Assembly: GCF_000003605.2 (NCBI RefSeq)
Contig: NW_003140813.1
Span: forward strand, 268,680 to 302,626
Origin: Saccoglossus kowalevskii
Lineage: Eukaryota; Hemichordata; Enteropneusta; Harrimaniidae
Reading direction: 5' to 3'
DNA: 33,947 nt
The notes under the pieces are model-generated. The model was not told where the DNA came from, did not search any database, and saw only the letters and a program-made list of their open reading frames with translations. Numbering within the stretch: the stretch's first letter is position 1; each line of letters starts with the position of its first letter. A program made the position numbers and the translations under genes. This document shows positions 16,354 to 30,282 of this stretch, piece after piece.

Positions 16354-19300
16354 CTTCAATGATCAAAAGAGATGTATTATACTAAATCCAACTCGAGAGA
16401 ATTGTTTTTATGCTGACATACTTTATCATGATATGATTACTAGTATAGCCATACACACGTATTTGTTGGTCAGTAACGTTGATATATTCTAGATTTGACC
16501 CCCTATATTAAATGTGTACACAATTTATAGTTGAAATATATATACCACAGTTCTGGAAATAAATTCAAATGAACATTACATATCAACATACACATTCAAA
16601 TTTGTCATAGTCCTGACTAAGTCACGTGACTACATACATACATACATACATACATACATACATACATACATACATACATACATACCCTTTCCACTTCCTG
16701 CATAACTCTGATAAGGTTTCTTCCAATTAATTTCTCAATATTCTCGTCTGTCCAGTTACGTATTACCATTTCTTCAATTAAATATGGATATTTGGACACA
16801 TCCTCTAATCCTACTGGCGTTCTGATACAAAATGTACCAATGAGAAAGATGTAATGGAAATGGCATCAAGATTCGTTACTCGGGTGAATCATAAAATGGG
16901 GTGTACGGAGTAGCCCAAATGAACAATCTGTATAAAAACATCTATTATGCAGCGATTTGTTTGTGCAAATAATGGTATGAAATATCAATATCACCAAAAA
17001 TGTCCCGAATTGGATGGACGTCTTAGAATGGTGGATATATATAAAAATTGGCTATTTAATTAGTTAATAAAAATCGTAAGTATATTATATGAACAAAATT
17101 ACCATGGAAACTACTTACACGCTAATGCCGTCGTAATCAGACCCGATTCCCACGCATCCATAGCCACAGACACTTGCAATGTGTTCAATGTGATCTGATT
17201 AAATATTTAATTTAGAAATTATCAGCATCTTATAGTAAATATTTGCTCAAATTTTGACCTGCATTTTCGCACGTTTGAAAACTGACAATGCTGTAAGATT
17301 GTGGCATACCTAGCTTAGTGAAAAGGCAGAATTTGTTTCACTAGATTGTGTAACTTGTAATACCCTGGGTAATGTGTTCATTTGCCCATTGCTTCACAGA
17401 ATAAGGATGTGACACATTGTAACAAATTGTATGTCGAAATTAGAATGGACAATTCTTTAGAAGGGAAATCCATGTTTTGTGGAGATATTTTGTTAACATG
17501 AGATGTTAAATAAACAATTGCACTCAATCAATTAATTGACCTTGTAAGCTACTACTGTTTTAGTCCAGACATCACGTGACCCAGACACCCCTGACACATG
17601 CAAGTTACGCACTGATGACAGGATTTGATAAATATGCGAATACAGTGTCTCTATAATTGAAATAAGTCTCATAATTCAAATCAAATCTCATATCACTGAT
17701 TGTTATCTGACCTGCGACCTGTGGGATATCACAGACTTCCTGTTTGTTTGGTTCACAGTTTATGAATCCTGGGTAGAATACCATCATAACAATTCCACCA
17801 TTTTCAACCTGAATAGGAAAAGACGAAAACAGGAAACTTTCGTCGTGTTCGATATGTGACGTATACGAAAATGTCGAAAAACTAAATTCGACTATGGCTC
17901 CTGAAAACAATTCATGGGTCGATGTATGTTCTCTTGCAACCGAATAACAATAAATTGAAATAATACATTATATATTGAAGATAAAAGTACGCCCCAAATC
18001 AATTACTCAATTAATAATTACAAGCCGTTCTAAGACTTCGTCCGGGACATTTCGTGTGTTGTCACACAGTGTTCTCGCAGCCGAGTGACTGAATATTACT
18101 GGTGACTGCGATACATCGAGGGCGTCGTTCATAGTGCTAACACTAACATGTGAAAGGTCCACTAACATACCAAGGCGATTCATTTCACGAATCAGGTCCT
18201 ATAATAATGGAAATGTACAATGAAAAGTTGTGAATTGATTAGAAAGCGGCCACAGAAACCCAGATCCATGCGTGGCAGATGTGGAGTGGTAACATTCAAC
18301 GTTTGTTCATATTGTACAGATGAAAGTTGATTTACAGGCATACAATTCCCATGATCGTTATTCACACTCAGTGAGTGCATACCTTTCCCCAGTCAGATAA
18401 GCCACCAAACTCCAAGTCGTCTTCAGAACGTCCACTGTTATCAGCCCTGAAATAAACAGCAATTAAGTAATAATGATAAATTACGGATTTCTGTGTTTCT
18501 CTTTCAGGAGCGTAATAGTAATCACGAGATAGGTAAAACACAACTACCAGACTTATAGTTATTTGGGCAGAATTATGCTTTTGGTGGGAGCTTGTGAGCA
18601 TTTGTATGAGATTGGTGGTAACATTCTTTAACACGTGTTTTAAACAAAGTGTGCAACCAGACAAATATACATGTATGTCGTGTTGTCAAATTCGCAGACT
18701 GTTGATATGATTGTTGTTTTGTTATCGATTTTACTGAAAACTTACGTAAATTTATAACTGAGTAAGTGCTATACTATGCTACCAAAAGTGTAGCAACATT
18801 TACATAAACAATACTGTATTGCATCGAACTGTTGCTCGAAGGAACATTCCCTATTAAGTCATATTTATATTTTAACTTGTAGTAAAGTGTTATTGAAAAT
18901 TAGGTGATTAACATAATAATAACAACATAACAAATGAAAAGCTTCTGTCGCATTGAATGATTTTTTATCTATACTTCTTAGTCAAATTAATTAGCTCGTT
19001 CACTGTAAATTCGTTTTCCCATGCCAGCAGCTAACTTAACATGGCCAACCACGCAGTGCCAAACATGAATTTTTAAAAGATTTGTTTCCAGGAATATGAA
19101 AACAGTGTGGTCAAGAATCAGAAGACACAATAATTAATAACACAATAGCTATATCAGTTATGTATAAAATAAATTCTCAGATCTAAAAGGGCAGTGGTCG
19201 TCGAGAAGCGCGTGTTCAAATTCGTGTAAAAAACAATGCTGTATACGTCGTGTGGGACCCGTGTCGATCACAGCGCGCCTCAGCGACCACCACTCTTTAA

Positions 19301-22300
19301 AGGGTGATGGTCGTCGCGCCACGCCGCGTTCTGTTCGATATGGAACACATATAGCGACGTACACGTTGCTTGTAAAATACATTGTTTGTTTGAATGAAAT
19401 TCGAACACGCGCCGCGCGACGACCACCGCCCTTTAATTCTTGGTTAAGGAATGTTCAGTTAAAGTCTAACACCGTGCACGTCACCAAGTCTCACCATGGT
19501 GTATTACAGCTGTGTGTTAATGTCATATATCTTGCACCGACGTCATACATCATACGAAGATTAGAATAAGTACTATCAACGCTATGACCTCCTTCCATTC
19601 CTATCAGACTACCAATCTTACCAGCAACAAATGCATCCACGATACCTGTTGGGATAGTATATGTGTATTTAGCATTTATTTATTTGCGTCAATTATACTA
19701 ATTCACACAGAATGCACAAATTGAAAATCAAAAAGCATAGTCGAAAGCAAATTAAAAAGTGAATAGCAACTGACTGTATAGACGCGAATTCGTAATGAAC
19801 AGTAAATTTAATTGCAAATCAAAACTGTAAATGCAAATTTGTCTAGAAGAGTAAAGCGTAAATGTGAAATACATTTTGAAACTGGAAAAATAAAAATGAG
19901 AATGTAAATTTCTTTTTCTAAAATAGAGCTGAAATAATTAGTGTAAGTGTAGGTATATAAATTGTATGAAATCAGTCGAATATACACAAAGTCACCTAAA
20001 GTATAGAACACAGACCGAGTACGAAGACTCCCGTTTTGGGACATAAAGTCCGACCCGAAAAAAATGTCGAGTTCTGGGATGGTTTCTTCTTAGCTCAGTA
20101 AATAAGAAAATCAAATTAATACTTAAATTAATACAATGCAAATATAATCAATTATAATTGTTTATCCTAATACTTGTAAATAAACAAAATTATGGAAAAA
20201 ACACCTTATCGAATTTTATTAAATTTTTCTTAAATCCTACAAAATTCACTTCATATACTTAACTATTTATGTAAAATTGTCTATCTGGTTTTAATGAAGA
20301 GTTATTTTATCTCAGTCTGTGTACTGTAAAATCCGTTATTTTTACTTTTTGTGCTGAAGGAGTGACTCAGTGAAAATAAAATCCAGCGAATATACCCTTT
20401 TCCCTATTTTACAATCAACTCATCAAAAATCAGTGAAAATAAATAAACTCTACGAAACAGCTAAAAGGTCTTTTAAGCGAAAATTTATCCCACCTAAAAT
20501 AGAGTATTCACGCAATGTAGCTATTATGGCGCATGTGTTTCAGAGATAATACAAAGTAAATAAGTCAGACCTTGTGCCGTTGTAACATATGCAAATGTAT
20601 CGCTGTATTGTTTGACATATCTTTTGACAAGGTCAATCTGGTCCAATGTCTGGCGAACGGCATCATTGTACTGGCTATCACATGGAACATAGACAGACCA
20701 AAACTACAACGAATTGAACCGACATATTATAATACGAATCTGACTAGATCATCGTGTACAATAATCCTTAGTTCTCTATATCCATGCACCAAATTGTAGT
20801 ATTCAAATTGACGTCACGTGCATGCTTTGCATGATTAAAAATTACTTTCGAACGTCTGAAACGTAAATGGTTTTCTTGGTTTTAAACGTATCATGTAAAT
20901 TTCCAGCTGCATTTAGATTCCTAGGCTGAATTACATATGTTCTGTGTTTGTTATTTTAATATACAAACTGCCACCAACTTCCCGTTGTTAAGCATCAACA
21001 TGTTATTGTCATATTCACTATGACCCGCAACGTGTACTGACTTTACAATCAGCCAGTCCAGATGATATGAACATATACTCGACTGTCCACCCATCTTTCT
21101 CGGAGCCTAGGGATATCATAGTGTACACCGTACGAACTATAATCACTTACCTACCTGAACACCCACCAGACCTTCTCGGGGCATAGAGATACCAGTGTGG
21201 ATTCTATGTGAACTATGAACATTACTTACCTGGCCACCCACCAGACCTTCTCAAAACTTAGGAATATCAGTATGGAGACCATACGAACCAACTAGATCAC
21301 TATTCAAATCAACGTTGACTCTAATACACGTTTCAATGCTGGGTAGATGTTGTGGACGTTTTGTTGACAATACATTTTGAAAAGCGCGTCATCAATAATA
21401 TGGTTTGTGTGTACTTTAAAAAAAGGAAATACGTATTACGTTGAACGAAGGAAGTAAAATTCCCTAACTTGTTCCCAAGAAAAGATATACATGTATTATC
21501 CCTTAGTGGCCCCAACATAAAGAGAGATAATGTTATCCATGTTGTTCAAAGTATTATCCATGAGTGGTCCCAGTAACAGAGATAGTAATTATTTTTTTTA
21601 TACGAGTTATGTAGTGATTTTTAAAATGCTGGTAATTTTGGTCAAATTGTGCTGTTTTTAGTATTATTATTGCATTTTCTGCTGGTGAAGTGAATAACAA
21701 TTCCACGCTGCTAGAGATTTTTTGAAGGAAAACAGGCTATGTAATCCATGAATGCAATGCAGTATGGGATGATAAACATTTATAAGATAAACATTTTATA
21801 TTGTCAAATTAATTGTAAAAGATTTTGTACGTGTATACCACAAAGTTGGAGATTTTAGCATGGATGAATTATTTCTTAATATTTTCCAAGTAATGATTCG
21901 TTCATTCTTAGCGTTTTTGCAAAATGTATTTTCTATATTCTTGGTGTGTTTCAGTTCTGTGAGTTTTGTTCATGAATAATGTTTTGTTTTGTTGTTGTTA
22001 ATATTGAATATTTCGTTGATACGTTCCAAATACAATTCTATCTATCTATCTAACTACTGTATGTGTATGTTTACCGAATAAATAATATTATTTATGGAGG
22101 TCATTGATAAGCGCAGCATTCCTTACTGTAAACAGGAGGCGAAGGCAATTGGCAAAAAAATCAACTAAACAGGAGGTAACAGATAAAAAACAAACTGTAG
22201 TCTCCCGCCCGGAGACGTACGTGTCGAACACCGAATAGAATTGTTTAGTTCGTGACGGTTCGGCAGGTGTAAGGAGTGTGTTTACCTTTTAATAAGTGCA

Positions 22301-23724
22301 TTTAGCAAATTGAGCAAATCAATAAATATATAATAGGACAGCAAATGTATGAGAATGTGGGGGTTGTACCACATTCATTCATTTATTCTGCCATTTAATC
22401 TCACTCCAAACCAATTAGGGATACCATGGTATGTGTGCAGTTAAAAGTTCATTTACTGCAATATTTGAATATATATGTACTCAACGAATTGTATTTGCTT
22501 TATGTAAATTTACTACGACACGAAGGGTATGCGTGATTATGAATTATCTTTGAATACCATCTTGCATTCTGTTGACGTAATGAACAAATAGTCTAATAGT
22601 CAAATAGTCTCATTGTACACATCAAATAACATTTCTATTTGGATTAGTTAAATTCAAGCTGCCGTCAGCAACCGGCATAAATGATTAGACAAAATAATTT
22701 TTTTTCACAACCCACCAAACCTTCCCAGACCATGGGAATGTCGTTATAGACACCATGCGAACTATGACGACTTACTCACCTGACCGACCACCCAAGAAGT
22801 TTTCGGAGCCTATGGAAATTATTTTGGACATCGTCCAACCTATGATCTGGCCACCTTACGTGCCTGGCCACTGGCAGCATCTTAGGGCATAGAAATATCA
22901 GGGAGGACACCATGCGAGCTATCAACACTCACTTACCTGAACGCCCACTAGGGACACAGTTTGCACACCGTCCAACCTAAAATGTGATGATCACTAACTT
23001 ACTTGGCCACCCACCAGACCTTCTCGGAGCCTAGGAATATCAGTATGGAGACCATATGAACTCAGATCGCTATTCAAATCAACGTTTGCTAATTGGTTTT
23101 TCCATTCGTATCGTATAGCCAATGGTAGATCATTGTGACTTGAAATAAATAAATAATAAATCAATCAATTATAATTATAATTCGATCAAACGAGTATCGA
23201 CCTACATTTTGATTCATCGCTATCTGCAATGGATCAAAACAAATTAAAGTTTCAATGCAGGACAGAGATCGCTCTAGCTTTGTTGTCATCATATCTGAAA
23301 AGCACGTGATCAAAGCAAATGCATTTTAGATTGTGTCTCGTCGTCCACAGAACATGATAACTGACGTAAGCACGATACATTTTTGGTGGGCGAGTTTTGA
23401 TTGTTTACTTCCAGTTAAATTCCTTTTCTGAAAAACTCAGGAGCTCACTGGTGATTTGCAGAAATCCGAGATACATATACGATTATTTACTAACCCATCA
23501 ACCAATGGAACCCTTCTCATAATATCCTTGGCATGCTCCAAGGTATCAGTCCCGGTATCAGTCTTGTCGTCTGAACCAGAGTTTGATGCAAGTGGTACAG
23601 CTATTGCAATGGCTATAACTGCTGCTGCGATGCCCACACCGAACGCCACAACGATTATCTTTCTTGTCCGTTTTGAACCGTACGATATTAGCGGTTCCTG
23701 TGAGATGCTGCCGTCGCCGTCCAT
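16186..23724 (-). CDS. DPEP: Membrane dipeptidase (renal dipeptidase family, M19), ten coding exons
   Basis: A binuclear zinc enzyme that hydrolyses dipeptides; family members also cleave leukotriene D4 and cystinyl-glycine. Exons on the minus strand: 23724-23495, 23138-23003, 20703-20571, 19645-19495, 18446-18383, 18198-18022, 17808-17712, 17194-17119, 16821-16686, 16353-16186. All junctions are GT/AG, phases agree, and the sum is 1368 nt (455 residues plus stop). Visible: H78-N-D80, E184 in GMEGGHS, H211 in LTHSC, H255 in DLSHVS, H276 in IFSHS, R287, and D349/D351 in GSDYDG. Cysteine pairs C130/C213 and C283/C315 and the dimer cysteine C428 (ECRTH) match the family. Residues 23-46 are a membrane segment after a basic RTRK, so topology is probably type II with the catalytic domain outside. 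The vertebrate GPI-anchor tail is absent. Usual family length is about 410. The Trp after HNDLP in vertebrates is Leu83 here. Confidence 0.95.
16631..16685. repeat. (CATA)n microsatellite
   Basis: About 14 uninterrupted tetranucleotide repeats abutting the 5' splice site of dipeptidase exon 9 (minus strand TATG units). Length is likely to vary between individuals. Confidence 0.97.
16686..16821 (-). CDS. DPEP: Dipeptidase exon 9
   Basis: Codes residues 355-400, with [16 protein letters not shown], the sequon N377-W-T, and [11 protein letters not shown]. The donor GTATGT is the first repeat of a (TATG)n microsatellite, so the intron begins with the microsatellite itself. Confidence 0.92.
17119..17194 (-). 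CDS. DPEP: Dipeptidase exon 8 (catalytic aspartate)
   Basis: Codes residues 330-354 plus two bases of Val355: [20 protein letters not shown] then YDGIS. It contains D349, the expected catalytic-site aspartate. Two overlapping GT donors are possible; GT/GTAAGT is chosen because it keeps phase with exon 9. Confidence 0.92.
17712..17808 (-). CDS. DPEP: Dipeptidase exon 7
   Basis: Codes residues 298-329 plus one base of Asp330: [18 protein letters not shown] then [15 protein letters not shown]315 pairs with C283 in the family. The acceptor is ATTCAG and the donor is GTCAGA. Confidence 0.93.
18022..18198 (-). CDS. DPEP: Dipeptidase exon 6 (two zinc histidines)
   Basis: Codes residues 239-297, beginning [20 protein letters not shown] and ending VPDEVLERL. 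It holds zinc ligands H255 and H276, C283, and R287, which matches the substrate-binding arginine of human DPEP1. Confidence 0.95.
18383..18446 (-). CDS. DPEP: Dipeptidase exon 5
   Basis: A 64-bp exon coding residues 217-238: [20 protein letters not shown] then GK. It matches the WADN to LSPFG segment of vertebrate enzymes, which is variable in between. The acceptor is TTTCAG and the donor is GTATGC. Confidence 0.9.
19184..19436. mobile_element. Two abutting ~120-140-bp MITE-like elements
   Basis: Three sets of ends are visible. The left end has AAAGGGCAGTGGTCGTCG, a central palindrome about TTTAAA at 19296-19301 has ACCACTCTTTAAAGGGTG, and the right end has CGACGACCACCGCCCTTTAA. This reads as element 1 (19184-19300) and element 2 (19296-19436), each with inverted ends AAAGGGYRGTGGTCGTCG, meeting at a shared TTTAAA. 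They lie in dipeptidase intron 4, are GC- and CpG-richer than their surroundings, and encode nothing. Confidence 0.75.
19495..19645 (-). CDS. DPEP: Dipeptidase exon 4 (bridging glutamate)
   Basis: Codes residues 167-216 plus two bases of Trp217. It contains [16 protein letters not shown] with E184, the residue expected to bridge both zinc ions, and [13 protein letters not shown] with H211 and C213. The acceptor is CCAACAG and the donor is GTGAGA. Confidence 0.93.
20322..20500 (-). mobile_element. MITE family T, copy 1 (decayed)
   Basis: A ~180-bp element starting TACTGTAAAAT, with inner GTGAAAATAAAATCCAGCGA and a degenerate far end. It is reverse-oriented relative to the copies at 28400-28580 and 31326-31502. 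It lies in dipeptidase intron 3. Confidence 0.7.
20571..20703 (-). CDS. DPEP: Dipeptidase exon 3
   Basis: Codes residues 123-166 plus one base of Gly167: [20 protein letters not shown] and on to AYVTTAQ. C130 is the first cysteine of a conserved intrachain disulfide. The acceptor is TTGTAG; the donor GTCTGA is weak by usual standards, yet frame and homology on both sides fix the boundary. Confidence 0.92.
21074..21330 (-). pseudogene. Three tandem decayed copies of dipeptidase exon 2 (3' half)
   Basis: In intron 2, minus strand. Unit c (21330-21230) reads [20 protein letters not shown], then KF, a stop, EGLVGGQ and donor GTAAGT. Unit b (about 21222-21154) ends REGLVGVQ with donor GTAGGT. Unit a (about 21140-21074) reads [20 protein letters not shown] followed by GTATAT. 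None retains the HNDLP-encoding 5' half or its acceptor, so they cannot replace exon 2. Confidence 0.8.
21590..22056 (+). mobile_element. LINE 3'-end fragment with (CTAT)n tail
   Basis: AT-rich 3' end of a non-LTR element in dipeptidase intron 2. It closes with CCAAATACAATTC and then CTATCTATCTATCTA, the kind of short-repeat tail LINEs carry. A faint terminal frame ([17 protein letters not shown]) resembles a LINE C-terminus. It is 5'-truncated; the left limit is approximate. Confidence 0.5.
22695..22992 (-). pseudogene. Four further decayed copies of dipeptidase exon 2 (3' half)
   Basis: Minus strand, in intron 2 within 10-310 bp of real exon 2. Unit d (about 22975-22938) is shortened but keeps the end GGGCGTTCAG and donor GTAAGT. 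Unit e (about 22925-22862) reads [12 protein letters not shown]. Unit f (about 22853-22782) ends GTCAG/GTGAGT. Unit g (about 22757-22697) reads [18 protein letters not shown]. They alternate with short spacers and form an array with the functional exon at one end. Confidence 0.7.
23003..23138 (-). CDS. DPEP: Dipeptidase exon 2 (first zinc ligands)
   Basis: Codes residues 77-122 and begins with THC-like sequence giving [12 protein letters not shown], including zinc ligands H78 and D80. It ends [15 protein letters not shown] before donor GTAAGT. Decayed copies of its 3' half, donor included, lie downstream in intron 2. Confidence 0.92.
23495..23724 (-). CDS. DPEP: Dipeptidase exon 1 (cytoplasmic tail, membrane anchor, start of catalytic domain)
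   Basis: Codes residues 1-76 plus two bases of Gly77. It has an acidic start, basic RTRK at 19-22, a hydrophobic Ile/Val/Ala-rich segment at 23-46, an acidic Asp/Thr linker, then [14 protein letters not shown]. The start is the ATG at 23724; the family motif VDG-HND is split by the following intron. The donor is GG/GTTAGT. A truncated near-identical copy lies at 26147-26491. Confidence 0.9.
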
Positions 23725-24159: not shown

Positions 24160-25170
24160 TCTTAAAAGGTCAACAACTACAGAGGTATTTTACTGATTTC
24201 ATTAATGAGTAAAATCTTTACCATAATTCTTAATTCTCGGCTAGAAATATGGTTTCATCAGAACAATATTACTCGAGGCCAGGCAGGTTTGCGTCGACGG
24301 ATTGATAACATCTTCTCCCCTCAGTTCTTGATCACGAAGTATCTTACGAATCATAGAGGGCGCTGTTATTGTATTTTTATCAACTTCTCGAAAGCTTTCG
24401 ATATAATACATTACTTGCTATTTGCGTTCAATGTACAGTAAACTTGAAACCTGTGTAAAAAACAAACAATAGATTAACTGAGATTTTTTAAGTTCTCTCT
24501 TAGAACTAGACAGAGCTGCATCCTAAGCCCAAATTTTGTTTTCAATATTTATTGACGATTTGACCGACTGTATCATGATGAGACAGTTGATGTGTGGCGG
24601 TAATGTTGTAGATCGAGACTTTCCCAAATTTTATGCCGATGATGTAGTACAATTTTCTGGCATCTTCAAAGTCAGCTAAATTACCTGCACAAATCTTTTC
24701 GGACTGCCGGGTATAACAGTTAACGTAAGACAACAATTTGTGTATTTTCTCATGTGCTTATTTGTGACAGTATGAAAAATGGTTTGATGTGAAACCTGTC
24801 AAAATAGTAGCACAGTAACAATATTTGGAGCTAATTTTCATGTCGAGACTAAGCTGGACCATCAACATAATAAATCAGGCAAATATGAGTAAAACGGCGT
24901 TATTTCAACTAAAAACATTAATCTAGGGAGCATTTCCCATTATTTGACTCAGTAGTTGCGCCAATTCTGTGCAACACCAGTGAAATTTGTGGTTTTTATT
25001 CCAGATCCAAATCTGTAAATTTTTGTTTGGAACTAATAATAGAGCAAATGATACTGTCGTGCATTATAGATGTAACGGTGTGTAAAATAGTGTTAAACAA
25101 GGGACCACATAGATACCCATCGAAGACAGCGTTATTCAATGGCAGAGACTGAGAAGACGAGAAGTAATAT
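24160..25170 (+). mobile_element. LINE (non-LTR retrotransposon) reverse transcriptase relic
   Basis: The plus strand reads NNYRGILLISLMSKIFTIIL, then QAGLRRRIDNIF and FINFSKAFDIIHYLL. After an internal gap come SIFIDDLTDCI and FYADDVVQFS (the YADD catalytic box), and later LFDSVVAPILC. This is the reverse transcriptase order of LINEs. An internal deletion lies between the KAFD block and the FIDDL block, and stops and frame changes follow, so it is dead. It lies upstream of dipeptidase exon 1. I cannot assign the clade. Confidence 0.85.
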
Positions 25171-26044
25171 TAATGTAAACTTGACGTACCATGTTGAACT
25201 ATTGTTTTGTCGCCATGAATTTGGGGAGGTGTGGTTAATTAAATCAGAATGTAGATAACTTCAAAGCAACATCTGTATAATCAATGAATCCCCTACAAAT
25301 CTACCTGTAACTACTGAGACTATATATTAAGTGATTTGTTTGTATTCTGTCCGAGTTGTGCCAGCTTTACACAAGAGTTTCTAGACGATATTATGAAGCG
25401 TTGTACCTTTATTTAAAAAAAATCTTCATAAATCGTCAGTGAATAAGTCAATATGCATTATATACGTGTTTTTTCCATCTATTCCTGAAACATCCTATAA
25501 CATGTACATTTTAATATCTTCATATTGCATAATCAATTGACTCCAGAGCGTGGCGTTACGTATTGTTTTGAATGTGCACTTAATAGAGTGAAGGATACCA
25601 TATGCAAATTATTGCAATTGCGACATCTGTTAATACAAACTGATAATAAAGAGGGGCACAGGAGGCGCCTACCCCTTCTAACTCGTGGTTACTCATGTAC
25701 ATGTATCCGATAATGCAATGCGGCACAATAACGTCATTGCAAAGTAATTTGCCGAAAAAATACTGAAAATGTCACATTTCTCCAATTACTTTCTTTCGCC
25801 AAATTTTTATTTTCGTCATTTTTAGGTGGAAATTGTAAACATACTTTTATTCGAAATACACTCATAAAGCTGTCACACCAAAAGAAATACACTGTGATTG
25901 GTTGTAAACTGAAATTTGATTTTCATCAATATTTTTCTTAGAAATTTACCCAGGAAAAAACACCGGCTAAACCGAGTTTCTTATCTTTTCGTTATTTGTG
26001 CATAGGGGATCACGCCGGGCGACTGTGCGTTGCCAGGCAAAAAG
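25171..26044. other. Unassigned sequence
   Basis: No gene seen. It is AT-rich, with one 62-codon open frame (25525-25713) of no recognisable type. Confidence 0.4.
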
Positions 26045-26147
26045 TAATGTGTGTTTTTCAACACGGCTGTAGAGTTGCATACAGTCTCTTGTTTGTATTT
26101 TAGTGATTTTCAATAACATAAAATATGAGAGTGTATAATTGGCGAAA
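26045..26147 (+). repeat. Direct repeat A, duplicated left arm of a fold-back MITE
   Basis: A 103-bp segment from TAATGTGTGTTTTTCAACAC to GTGTATAATTGGC, recurring at 26492-26594 with one visible difference. The two copies flank the pasted exon 1 fragment. Confidence 0.92.
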
Positions 26148-26491
26148 GCACGTGATCAAAGCAAATGCATTTTAGATGGTGTCTCGTTGTCCACAGAACA
26201 TGATAACTGACGTAAGCACGATACATTTTTGGTGGGCGAGTTTTGATTGTTTACTTCCAGTTAAATTCCTTTTCTGAAAAACTCAGGAGCTTACTGGTGA
26301 TTTGCAGAAATCCGAGATACATATACGATTATTTACTAACCCATCAACCAATGGAACCCTTCTCATAATATCCTTGGCATGCTCCAATGTATCAGTCCCG
26401 GTATCAGTCTTGTCGTCTGAACCAGAGTTTGATGCAAGTGGTACAGCTATTGCAATGGCTATAACTGCTGCTGCGATGCCCACACCGAACG
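26147..26491 (-). pseudogene. Truncated copy of dipeptidase exon 1
   Basis: Colinear, without indels, with 23301-23645; I count four differences over 345 bp. It keeps the codons from FGVGIAAAV through the membrane segment to RRVPLVDG and the donor GTTAGT, and about 190 bp of the following intron. It lacks the start codon and first 28 residues, and the frame upstream meets a stop before any ATG. It therefore cannot supply the usual N-terminus unless joined to another upstream exon. It lies upstream of the real gene in the same orientation. Confidence 0.9.
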
Positions 26492-26737
26492 TAATGTGTG
26501 TTTTTCAACACGGCTGTAGAGTTGCATACAGTCTCTTGTTTGTATTTTAGTGATTTTCAATAACATAAAATATGAGAGTGTATAATTGGCAAAAGCCGGG
26601 TTACCGCGAAATAAATTATCATTTTGCGGCAACCCGGCTTTCACCATTTACACACTCCCATGATAGTGTTGTATTTTATTGAAAAAAACACAACAAAATG
26701 AATAGATGTATGCGATTCTAACAAGGCTGCACCCCGA
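26492..26737. mobile_element. Fold-back MITE with ~120-bp imperfect inverted arms
   Basis: The left arm (26492-26610) and right arm (about 26615-26737) are imperfect reverse complements. The centre is the tightest match: AAAGCCGGGTTACCGCG against GCGGCAACCCGGCTTT. Both arms carry GTTGCATAC/GTATGCGAT-type and TTTTCAATA/TATTGAAAA segments. It is non-coding and probably folds into a long hairpin. Confidence 0.75.
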
Positions 26738-28580: not shown

Positions 28581-29865
28581 TAGCCAAATTAAAACCCAGT
28601 AAATAATTAATTAGTTGACAGTATTGGAACAAACAGAATTAAAAGTTATTACATGATTCATGTCCAATGTGACATACAGTGCTTGTACATAATTTCTTAA
28701 CATAAAATTCAAACAAACACTGCATGAATACCATCGCACTTTGACCACTATGAAGCATTAATAATTTTGAAAAAGATTGTTGAGCTCCTCTCCAAAGATT
28801 CTACATTATTGTTTTTTTGATCAAGAGTTAAAAATGGCAAACTCTAGTAGAAATGAAAGCGAAGACGAAGTATCTATGAATAGTGAGGATTGTTTTTTGG
28901 ATTAAATGTATATGGGGGGGGGGGAGGCTTTGAAAATGTTTGGACTCATGGCAACCATTTATTTGTTTATCATGAGAGCATTTGCTCATATATTATAAAG
29001 GGGAAATGTTGACATCTGTATCTGTCTGACATCTGTACTACATCATGTTGTTTATAATATATTTTCACACTAACTGCGGTTAAGTATGCTGCTAAATGAC
29101 TTTGTTTCATTTTTCTGCTCAAGTTGAAGCGATGGGTTAAGCATGATTTTTATGAATTGTAAAGGTACCACAGTCACCTGGCAATATATGTTAAAAATAC
29201 AATATAGACAAGAAGATGTTAGTTTTAGTATTGTTGTTTGATATTGTATATTGATAATATTGTAAACGCTTGTGCACTTGTGTATTTGTGGTTGTCTGTT
29301 TTTAGTTTGAGTTTCTTGTTTACTGGATACATTTATGTATTGTATTGATTTAGAATACAAAGACTATTAAAACTGCATGTGCAAATATATTATTAATTCC
29401 TTGAGAAAAAAAAAGCATGAGATGAAAATCAGTTTTAAAAATTAAATTGTAATTTTTAAATAATAATGAAGAATCTAGAAAAAATTAATAATGTGTTTCT
29501 TATCTTTGTGTGTTCTATCTCAGAACAAAGCTCTTTTGGAATTGATGAAAAAGATTATTGTTAAACCCTATCACATAACAAATTAATGCGGGACGAGGTC
29601 CACAGATATTGTAGGCAATACCTACCATTTCCATTACAGTAAATGTTTGAAATATCTAATCCACATAAAAAAATAATCTTATTTACTGTATTTAAATCGC
29701 AGCAACTGTAGTGTTATTAGACATCTAGAAGTACTACACTGTCAATACCATGTTATCTAGAACAGAAATCCAGAGTTGACCCGGGTGTTGTCGCTACTAT
29801 GCTATAAACAGAAATATTCATATATGGACTGACCATACTACACTTACTGGAAATCCAAGAAGAAA
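28581..29865. other. Unassigned AT-rich sequence
   Basis: No gene seen before the BTB exon. It contains a run of eleven G at 28914-28924. The 96-codon minus-strand frame at 29070-29360 is low-complexity. Confidence 0.4.
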
Positions 29866-30265
29866 ATGATACAATCTCGGGTGTATACAATTAATCTACA
29901 TACGAGTAGTGCATTCCGCGTAATGAACGAACTACGTCAAAAACATGAACTCTGCGACATCATTTTACGAATAGAAGATCATGAATTTGAGGCGCATAAA
30001 GTGGTCCTTGCTGGATGTTGTCCATATCTGCGTGCTATGTTCACTAACGGCATGCTGGAAACTGACAAAAATTACATTGAAATACAAGGAGTTGATCCAA
30101 TGGCCATGGAACTACTCTTAGAATTTATGTACACTGGAAAAATTGAAATTACTGTGGAGAACGTACAAGGTGTTCTAGCTGGTGCAAGTATGCTAAACCT
30201 TGCCAGTCTACGCAATGTTTGTTCTTCCTTTCTTCAGTCTCAACTAGATGCCTCCAATTGTCTAG
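29866..30265 (+). CDS. BTB/POZ domain first coding exon of a Kelch-like (KLHL-type) gene; partial
   Basis: From the ATG at 29866, 133 codons plus one base end at donor CTAG/GTAAGT. Residues about 20-125 form a BTB/POZ domain: MNELRQKHELCDIILRI, FEAHKVVLAGCCPYLRAMFT, ELLLEFMYTGKIEI and ENVQGVLAGASML. The exon ends SQLDASNCLG, exactly where many KLHL proteins pass into the BACK domain. Such proteins usually act as substrate adaptors of CUL3 ubiquitin ligases, with Kelch repeats following. No BACK or Kelch exon is found in the remaining 3.7 kb, so the rest lies beyond the window. Which KLHL it matches cannot be told from the BTB alone; another BTB protein is possible. Confidence 0.9.
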
Positions 30266-30282
30266 GTAAGTAAACCAACTTT

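Follow-up and report, generated by a model that had tools for sequence, protein, structure and literature searches.

Intron 2 of a membrane dipeptidase gene in Saccoglossus kowalevskii holds an array of partial exon 2 copies that is very probably an old, neutrally decaying tandem repeat arisen across the exon 2/intron 2 border, a relic of slippage or unequal crossing-over. The window is the whole stretch of DNA that was analysed (33,947 nt, contig NW_003140813.1, positions 268,680 to 302,626), and all coordinates below refer to it. The host gene lies on its minus strand and encodes an animal-type membrane dipeptidase, as judged by matches to Pfam Peptidase_M19 (PF01244, E 1.8e-83, residues 68-315) and to the best chain of the solved dipeptidase 1 in the PDB (E 2.4e-86), both obtained with a protein joined by hand from seven exon translations, with borders set by eye and a partial last exon. 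Since the 3' half of exon 2 aligns with dipeptidase 1, the array derives from the exon and not the reverse. The parts of the gene concerned are the following, a slash marking an exon border here and below.

23003..23138, minus strand: exon 2 (GHNDLP...VGGQ), with borders TTTCAAG/T...GGCCAA/GTAAGT by direct reading, supported by the translation, the M19 match and the residue alignment to dipeptidase 1
23087-23138, minus strand: the HND-encoding half, within exon 2
23002 to 20704, minus strand: intron 2, between exons 2 and 3
20571..20703, minus strand: exon 3 (FWSVYVPCD...), bounds by eye, with a donor and the acceptor TTGTAG/TTTTGG

Elsewhere in the window, an open frame with a BTB/POZ domain (29833-30270, plus strand, E 2.4e-32) perhaps belongs to a kelch-like neighbour gene. 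The intron after dipeptidase exon 4 carries inverted repeats (19186-19436, arms of 37 and 28 nt, both 86% complementary), possibly a small transposable element. Upstream of the gene, a second copy of exon 1 and its flanks (26145-26491) lies in the same orientation as the first (23299-23645); the two are 98.8% identical over 347 nt, and the duplication looks recent. On both sides of this copy stands a 109-nt direct repeat of 98% identity (26041-26149 and 26488-26596), as if the copy had entered during break repair together with a long target duplication, and next to it lies an inverted repeat (26572-26661, 41-nt arms, 83% complementary, 8 nt apart) that may be a small palindromic element.

The array was recovered with nhmmer using a profile of its eight units, which are the end of exon 2 and seven copies. 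This profile matched exactly eight places in the whole window, with E from 9e-23 to 3.6e-8 and always on the minus strand; the ninth-best match had E 2. Leave-one-out profiles recovered all eight units, the exon with E 2.4e-21 and the copies with 1.3e-15, 2e-14, 1.1e-10, 2.2e-8, 2e-6, 2.3e-5 and, for the weakest, 0.004, while the best match off the array in the 34-kb window had E 1.3; the remaining rows retained the alignment built with all eight units, which makes this test partly non-blind. All seven partial copies of the exon's 3' part that an earlier note had described in intron 2, in the orientation of the gene, were thus found again. When exon 2 alone served as query, five of the seven copies scored 35 to 128, above every one of 500 Markov shuffles (maximum 27), the other two scoring 24 and 22, inside the null. 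No score above 22 was obtained with the same query in intron 1 or on the antisense strand of intron 2. The closest copy, u6, has 82 identical positions over a 90-nt stretch of the query; overall, the copies are 50-73% identical to one another and 62-88% to exon 2. Tandem Repeats Finder gave no row for the array at a minimum score of 30, and according to its description copies less than about 70% alike usually fall below threshold. Among viral contigs, six pattern matches were obtained, none of them a relative by tblastn. Taken as a whole, the array is a real but probably idle relic.

A transposon fragment or other dispersed repeat that overlaps exon 2 by chance has only a slight probability in our view: a possible reverse transcriptase fragment lies nearby (24166-24438, plus strand, Pfam RVT_1 E 5.9e-5, below the curated cut-off) and could be a mobile-element remnant, but the unit occurs nowhere else in the 34 kb and its exon part aligns with the dipeptidase 1 protein.

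As cut here, a unit starts 60 nt before the end of exon 2, at SSYG, and runs 16 nt into intron 2, past the donor, for a length of about 76 nt. The units follow exon 2 head to tail, and the exon's own 3' end is the first unit of the nearer cluster. All of them lie on the minus strand.

22987..23062, minus strand: E2, the first unit of the array (nhmmer E 9.1e-23; leave-one-out E 2.4e-21)
22921..22978, minus strand: copy u2, with an internal deletion and donor CAG/GTAAGT, first intron-side base 22936 (leave-one-out E 0.004)
22842..22920, minus strand: copy u3, with the weak donor CAC/GTAAGG (leave-one-out E 2.3e-5)
22764..22841, minus strand: copy u4, with donor CAG/GTGAGT (leave-one-out E 2.2e-8)
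22706..22763, minus strand: copy u5, truncated and devoid of a donor (leave-one-out E 2e-6)
21215..21316, minus strand: copy u6, a longer exon 2 piece (from NVDLNSDL) with an in-frame TGA and donor CAG/GTAAGT (leave-one-out E 1.3e-15)
21139..21214, minus strand: copy u7, with donor CAG/GTAGGT and an overlapping TAG/GTAAGT (leave-one-out E 2e-14)
21063..21138, minus strand: copy u8, with the decayed donor CGA/GTATAT (5/9 consensus matches; leave-one-out E 1.1e-10)
23065..23072, minus strand: TAGCGATC, the exon-side unit edge (7/8 match to 22989-22996)
22989..22996, minus strand: TAGTGATC, the intron-side unit edge, just past the donor (7/8 match to 23065-23072)

The arrangement in two clusters suggested in the earlier note was retained with corrected spans, cluster A covering 22706-22978, contiguous with the exon 2 unit, and cluster B 21063-21316; the peptide segment SYGxHTDIP to VGGQ, said there to be kept repeatedly, is only partly retained in most copies. 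Neighbouring units are spaced by 75, 76, 78 or 79 nt, and by 142 nt across u2, a shortened unit of 58 nt. In cluster B, the autocorrelation has peaks at 75 and 151 nt; those of cluster A are at 157 and 221 nt, with a weaker one at 78 nt. Such near-constant, head-to-tail units, each holding exon as well as intron sequence, are those of a tandem repeat across an exon-intron border.

The edges of the unit provide an indication of how it was cut out. The two 8-mers TAGCGATC and TAGTGATC match at seven of eight positions exactly 76 nt apart, and among offsets from 70 to 82 such a match exists at 76 only. It was first spotted by eye; in the null, 3 of 198 random 25-nt spans show one at offset 76, to be compared with a scanned stretch of 40 nt. 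Copy u6 carries TAGTGATC, identical to the intron-side 8-mer. A tandem duplication breaking at this short match would give precisely a unit made of half an exon plus a donor and devoid of an acceptor, although the match may be a footprint of the duplication junction rather than its cause. In the order of events that we favour, a first tandem duplication would have joined these near-identical 8-mers through slippage or microhomology-mediated repair, and more units would have been added by unequal crossing-over, perhaps partly as pairs; additions of two units at once are suggested by the pairing of u2 with u4 and by the cluster A peak at 157 nt. A larger block duplication would then have placed the tail of intron 1, exon 2 and two units downstream, and the acceptor half of this block would have been removed by one deletion, or two. 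The tree of the units, a check proposed in the earlier note, was built and is nearly devoid of resolution: none of its five inner branches reaches 95/80, u2+u4 alone is fairly supported (89/88), and E2+u6 obtains 63/76. The order of events consequently rests on collinearity.

This collinearity concerns cluster B. The succession exon 2-u2-u3 is collinear with u6-u7-u8 (182 of 262 columns identical, blastn E 2e-30), and the similarity extends upstream of the cluster into a flank resembling intron 1.

21323..21395, minus strand: the flank on the upstream side of cluster B, which resembles, and is collinear with, 23242-23313 of intron 1 (identity in 50 of 73 columns, blastn E 3.3e-4)

The flank scores 50, whereas the maximum is 40 both in 1000 shuffles and in 55 other tiles. 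Downstream of the two clusters no homology was detected (score 32, reached by 27 of 500 shuffles). Between the flank and u6, the copy holds 4 nt where the original has 153 nt (23239-23087), a segment that spans the intron 1 end with its acceptor as well as the HND half. These four bases (AGTC) were set by the aligner on the exon 2 acceptor junction and are of a size expected by chance; if they are a true remnant, they would imply two deletions rather than one. Given the intron 1-like sequence upstream, cluster B probably once had the acceptor and the HND half, and we read this far cluster, from its sequence, as a block copy that later lost its acceptor by one or two deletions. The statement that no copy has an acceptor or an HND-encoding half is true today, and a blastn search of the window, with E up to 0.05, matched the HND half (23087-23138) nowhere but in exon 2. 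For cluster B, we prefer to interpret this absence as a later loss. Exon 2 remains the sole working copy because it alone has both the acceptor and the HND half.

An intron 1-like flank next to a longer exon 2 piece is also what a failed tandem exon duplication would leave, the full exon having been copied as a would-be alternative exon, with cluster B as its remains and the 76-nt array as a side product. We regard this scenario as quite unlikely: the copies of cluster A lack such a flank and have a period of 76-79 nt, which whole-exon duplication does not produce, and u6 contains an in-frame stop. Likewise, the array does not have the make-up of a tandem or mutually exclusive exon, no copy retaining the acceptor region of exon 2. 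In part, the failed duplication is contained in the tandem-repeat explanation, which, in its general form of relics of unequal crossing-over, had already been put forward and agrees with the spacing of 75-79 nt, the peak at 157 nt in cluster A and the collinear block copy.

How the copies have changed since is in agreement with a tandem repeat under neutral decay. Mismatches among the copies amount to 38, 35 and 43% at codon positions 1, 2 and 3 (permutation p 0.27); the copies thus vary alike over the three positions and, on these sequence data, look neutral, as expected for sequence free of reading-frame constraint. In six columns, four or more copies agree on a base that differs from exon 2, and five of these columns are third positions, as expected for a working exon drifting at silent sites. 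An excess of third-position differences separates exon 2 from the copies (column permutation p 0.043; Fisher p 0.010 with non-independent cells) and was read as synonymous drift of exon 2 itself, since the copies show no such excess among themselves. Free decay of the copies also means that earlier states of the exon have left traces in them; the last exon base is A in exon 2 (CAA/GTAAGT) and G in four of the six copies having that column. The mean mismatch between copies, about 39%, points to an old array. At usual animal neutral rates, its age would be tens of millions of years or more, so that relatives should share it. The same divergence bears on an assembly artefact, to which we give almost no credence: nothing in favour of it was found for the array itself, and while the 99% exon 1 duplicate in the window could be questioned, the identity of the array copies to one another and to exon 2 is far below the level that confuses assemblers. 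A collapse of real exons by the assembler, named earlier as a possible refutation, is likewise unlikely for copies that differ by 35-43% on average per codon position.

The donors are the part of the unit for which another role can be envisaged. The recurrence of GTAAGT, GTAGGT or GTGAGT at the donor position had been emphasized, and it is observed in four of the seven copies (two, one and one, respectively), the other three reading GTAAGG, GTATAT or being truncated. Five strong donor-like sites remain in these four copies, whose donors agree with the 9-nt consensus in 8 or 9 positions, as compared with 8 for exon 2's own. In the 34 kb, 11 minus-strand sites have at least 8/9 consensus matches; five lie within copies and a sixth is the donor of exon 2. 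The computed pairing with U1 is -12.9 to -13.8 kcal/mol for the donors of the four copies versus -5.6 for CAA/GTAAGT of exon 2. In the Rogers model, tandem duplication yields a new intron, spliced in RNA, between duplicated AGGT-type sites; as to such sites, four of the copies here carry CAG/GT. Matrix scoring of acceptors placed exon 2's own acceptor at rank 102 of 282 AG sites and that of exon 3 at rank 55; it was uninformative and was dropped.

These donors could act as decoys that compete with the donor of exon 2. Use of the nearest strong one (22936) is predicted to extend exon 2 by 66 nt, the extension reading VS and then two stops, in frame and right after VGGQVS, and would lower dipeptidase mRNA, for example through nonsense-mediated decay. 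We hold this explanation, which the strong U1 pairing and the share of the window's strong sites found in the copies would favour, to be unlikely. Three of the seven copies have no strong donor: u5 breaks off ahead of it, that of u8 has decayed and that of u3 is weak. In the six copies with a donor (u5, having none, was left out), the donor hexamer shows 5 mismatches in 36 positions versus 98 in 342 for the exonic part (Fisher p 0.075, with cells non-independent because the copies share descent). The donor columns rank first of 52 nine-column windows and third of 58 six-column windows for conservation, so that they show a weak trend to better conservation that is not significant. The proposal of decoy donors thus finds no positive evidence here, even though the surviving donors are strong. 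Its more elaborate form, in which a bank of donors copied from that of exon 2 would tune dipeptidase output via the extended, stop-containing exon 2, and a G-to-A step at the last exon base (CAG to CAA, as deduced from the copies) would have shifted the balance its way, seems very unlikely. In the tandem-repeat explanation that we prefer, the surviving donors would be carried by descent and not maintained for a use, an effect of the array on splicing through the 66-nt extension and its immediate stop being possible.

Related cases are on record, and the form of this array is moderately unusual. In the potato RdRp gene, a boundary-spanning tandem duplication with intron gain has been described (PMC4974935), which involves the 3' part of an intron and the 5' part of an exon. 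Both that duplication and the dipeptidase array cross an exon-intron border and multiply splicing signals, but the present array is its mirror image, with more copies and lacking evidence of a new intron. In fission yeast, 24-nt repeats with AGGC are reported with one spliced EST per gene (PMC3629103), and in SPOG_01682 the EST removes more than the annotated intron. As in the dipeptidase array, several tandem units that are not identical each bear a cryptic splice site and are similar to the nearby exon, the yeast units making up the intron; the dipeptidase units differ in being 76 nt long, in bearing a true donor and in lying inside an existing intron. Published tandem exon duplications, some backed by split reads (PMC9013439), likewise place exon-like sequence in an intron beside the exon, whereas the dipeptidase copies, unlike these duplicated exons, comprise only the 3' part of the exon and the donor and lack the acceptor of exon 2.

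The array provides a clear example of a tandem repeat starting across a splice donor, and is in this sense a fossil of a gene-border duplication. If the surviving donors were used, the array would illustrate how a splicing switch can be installed by a copying accident. More generally, repeats that span an exon-intron border may be raw material for new donors, alternative exon ends or new introns.
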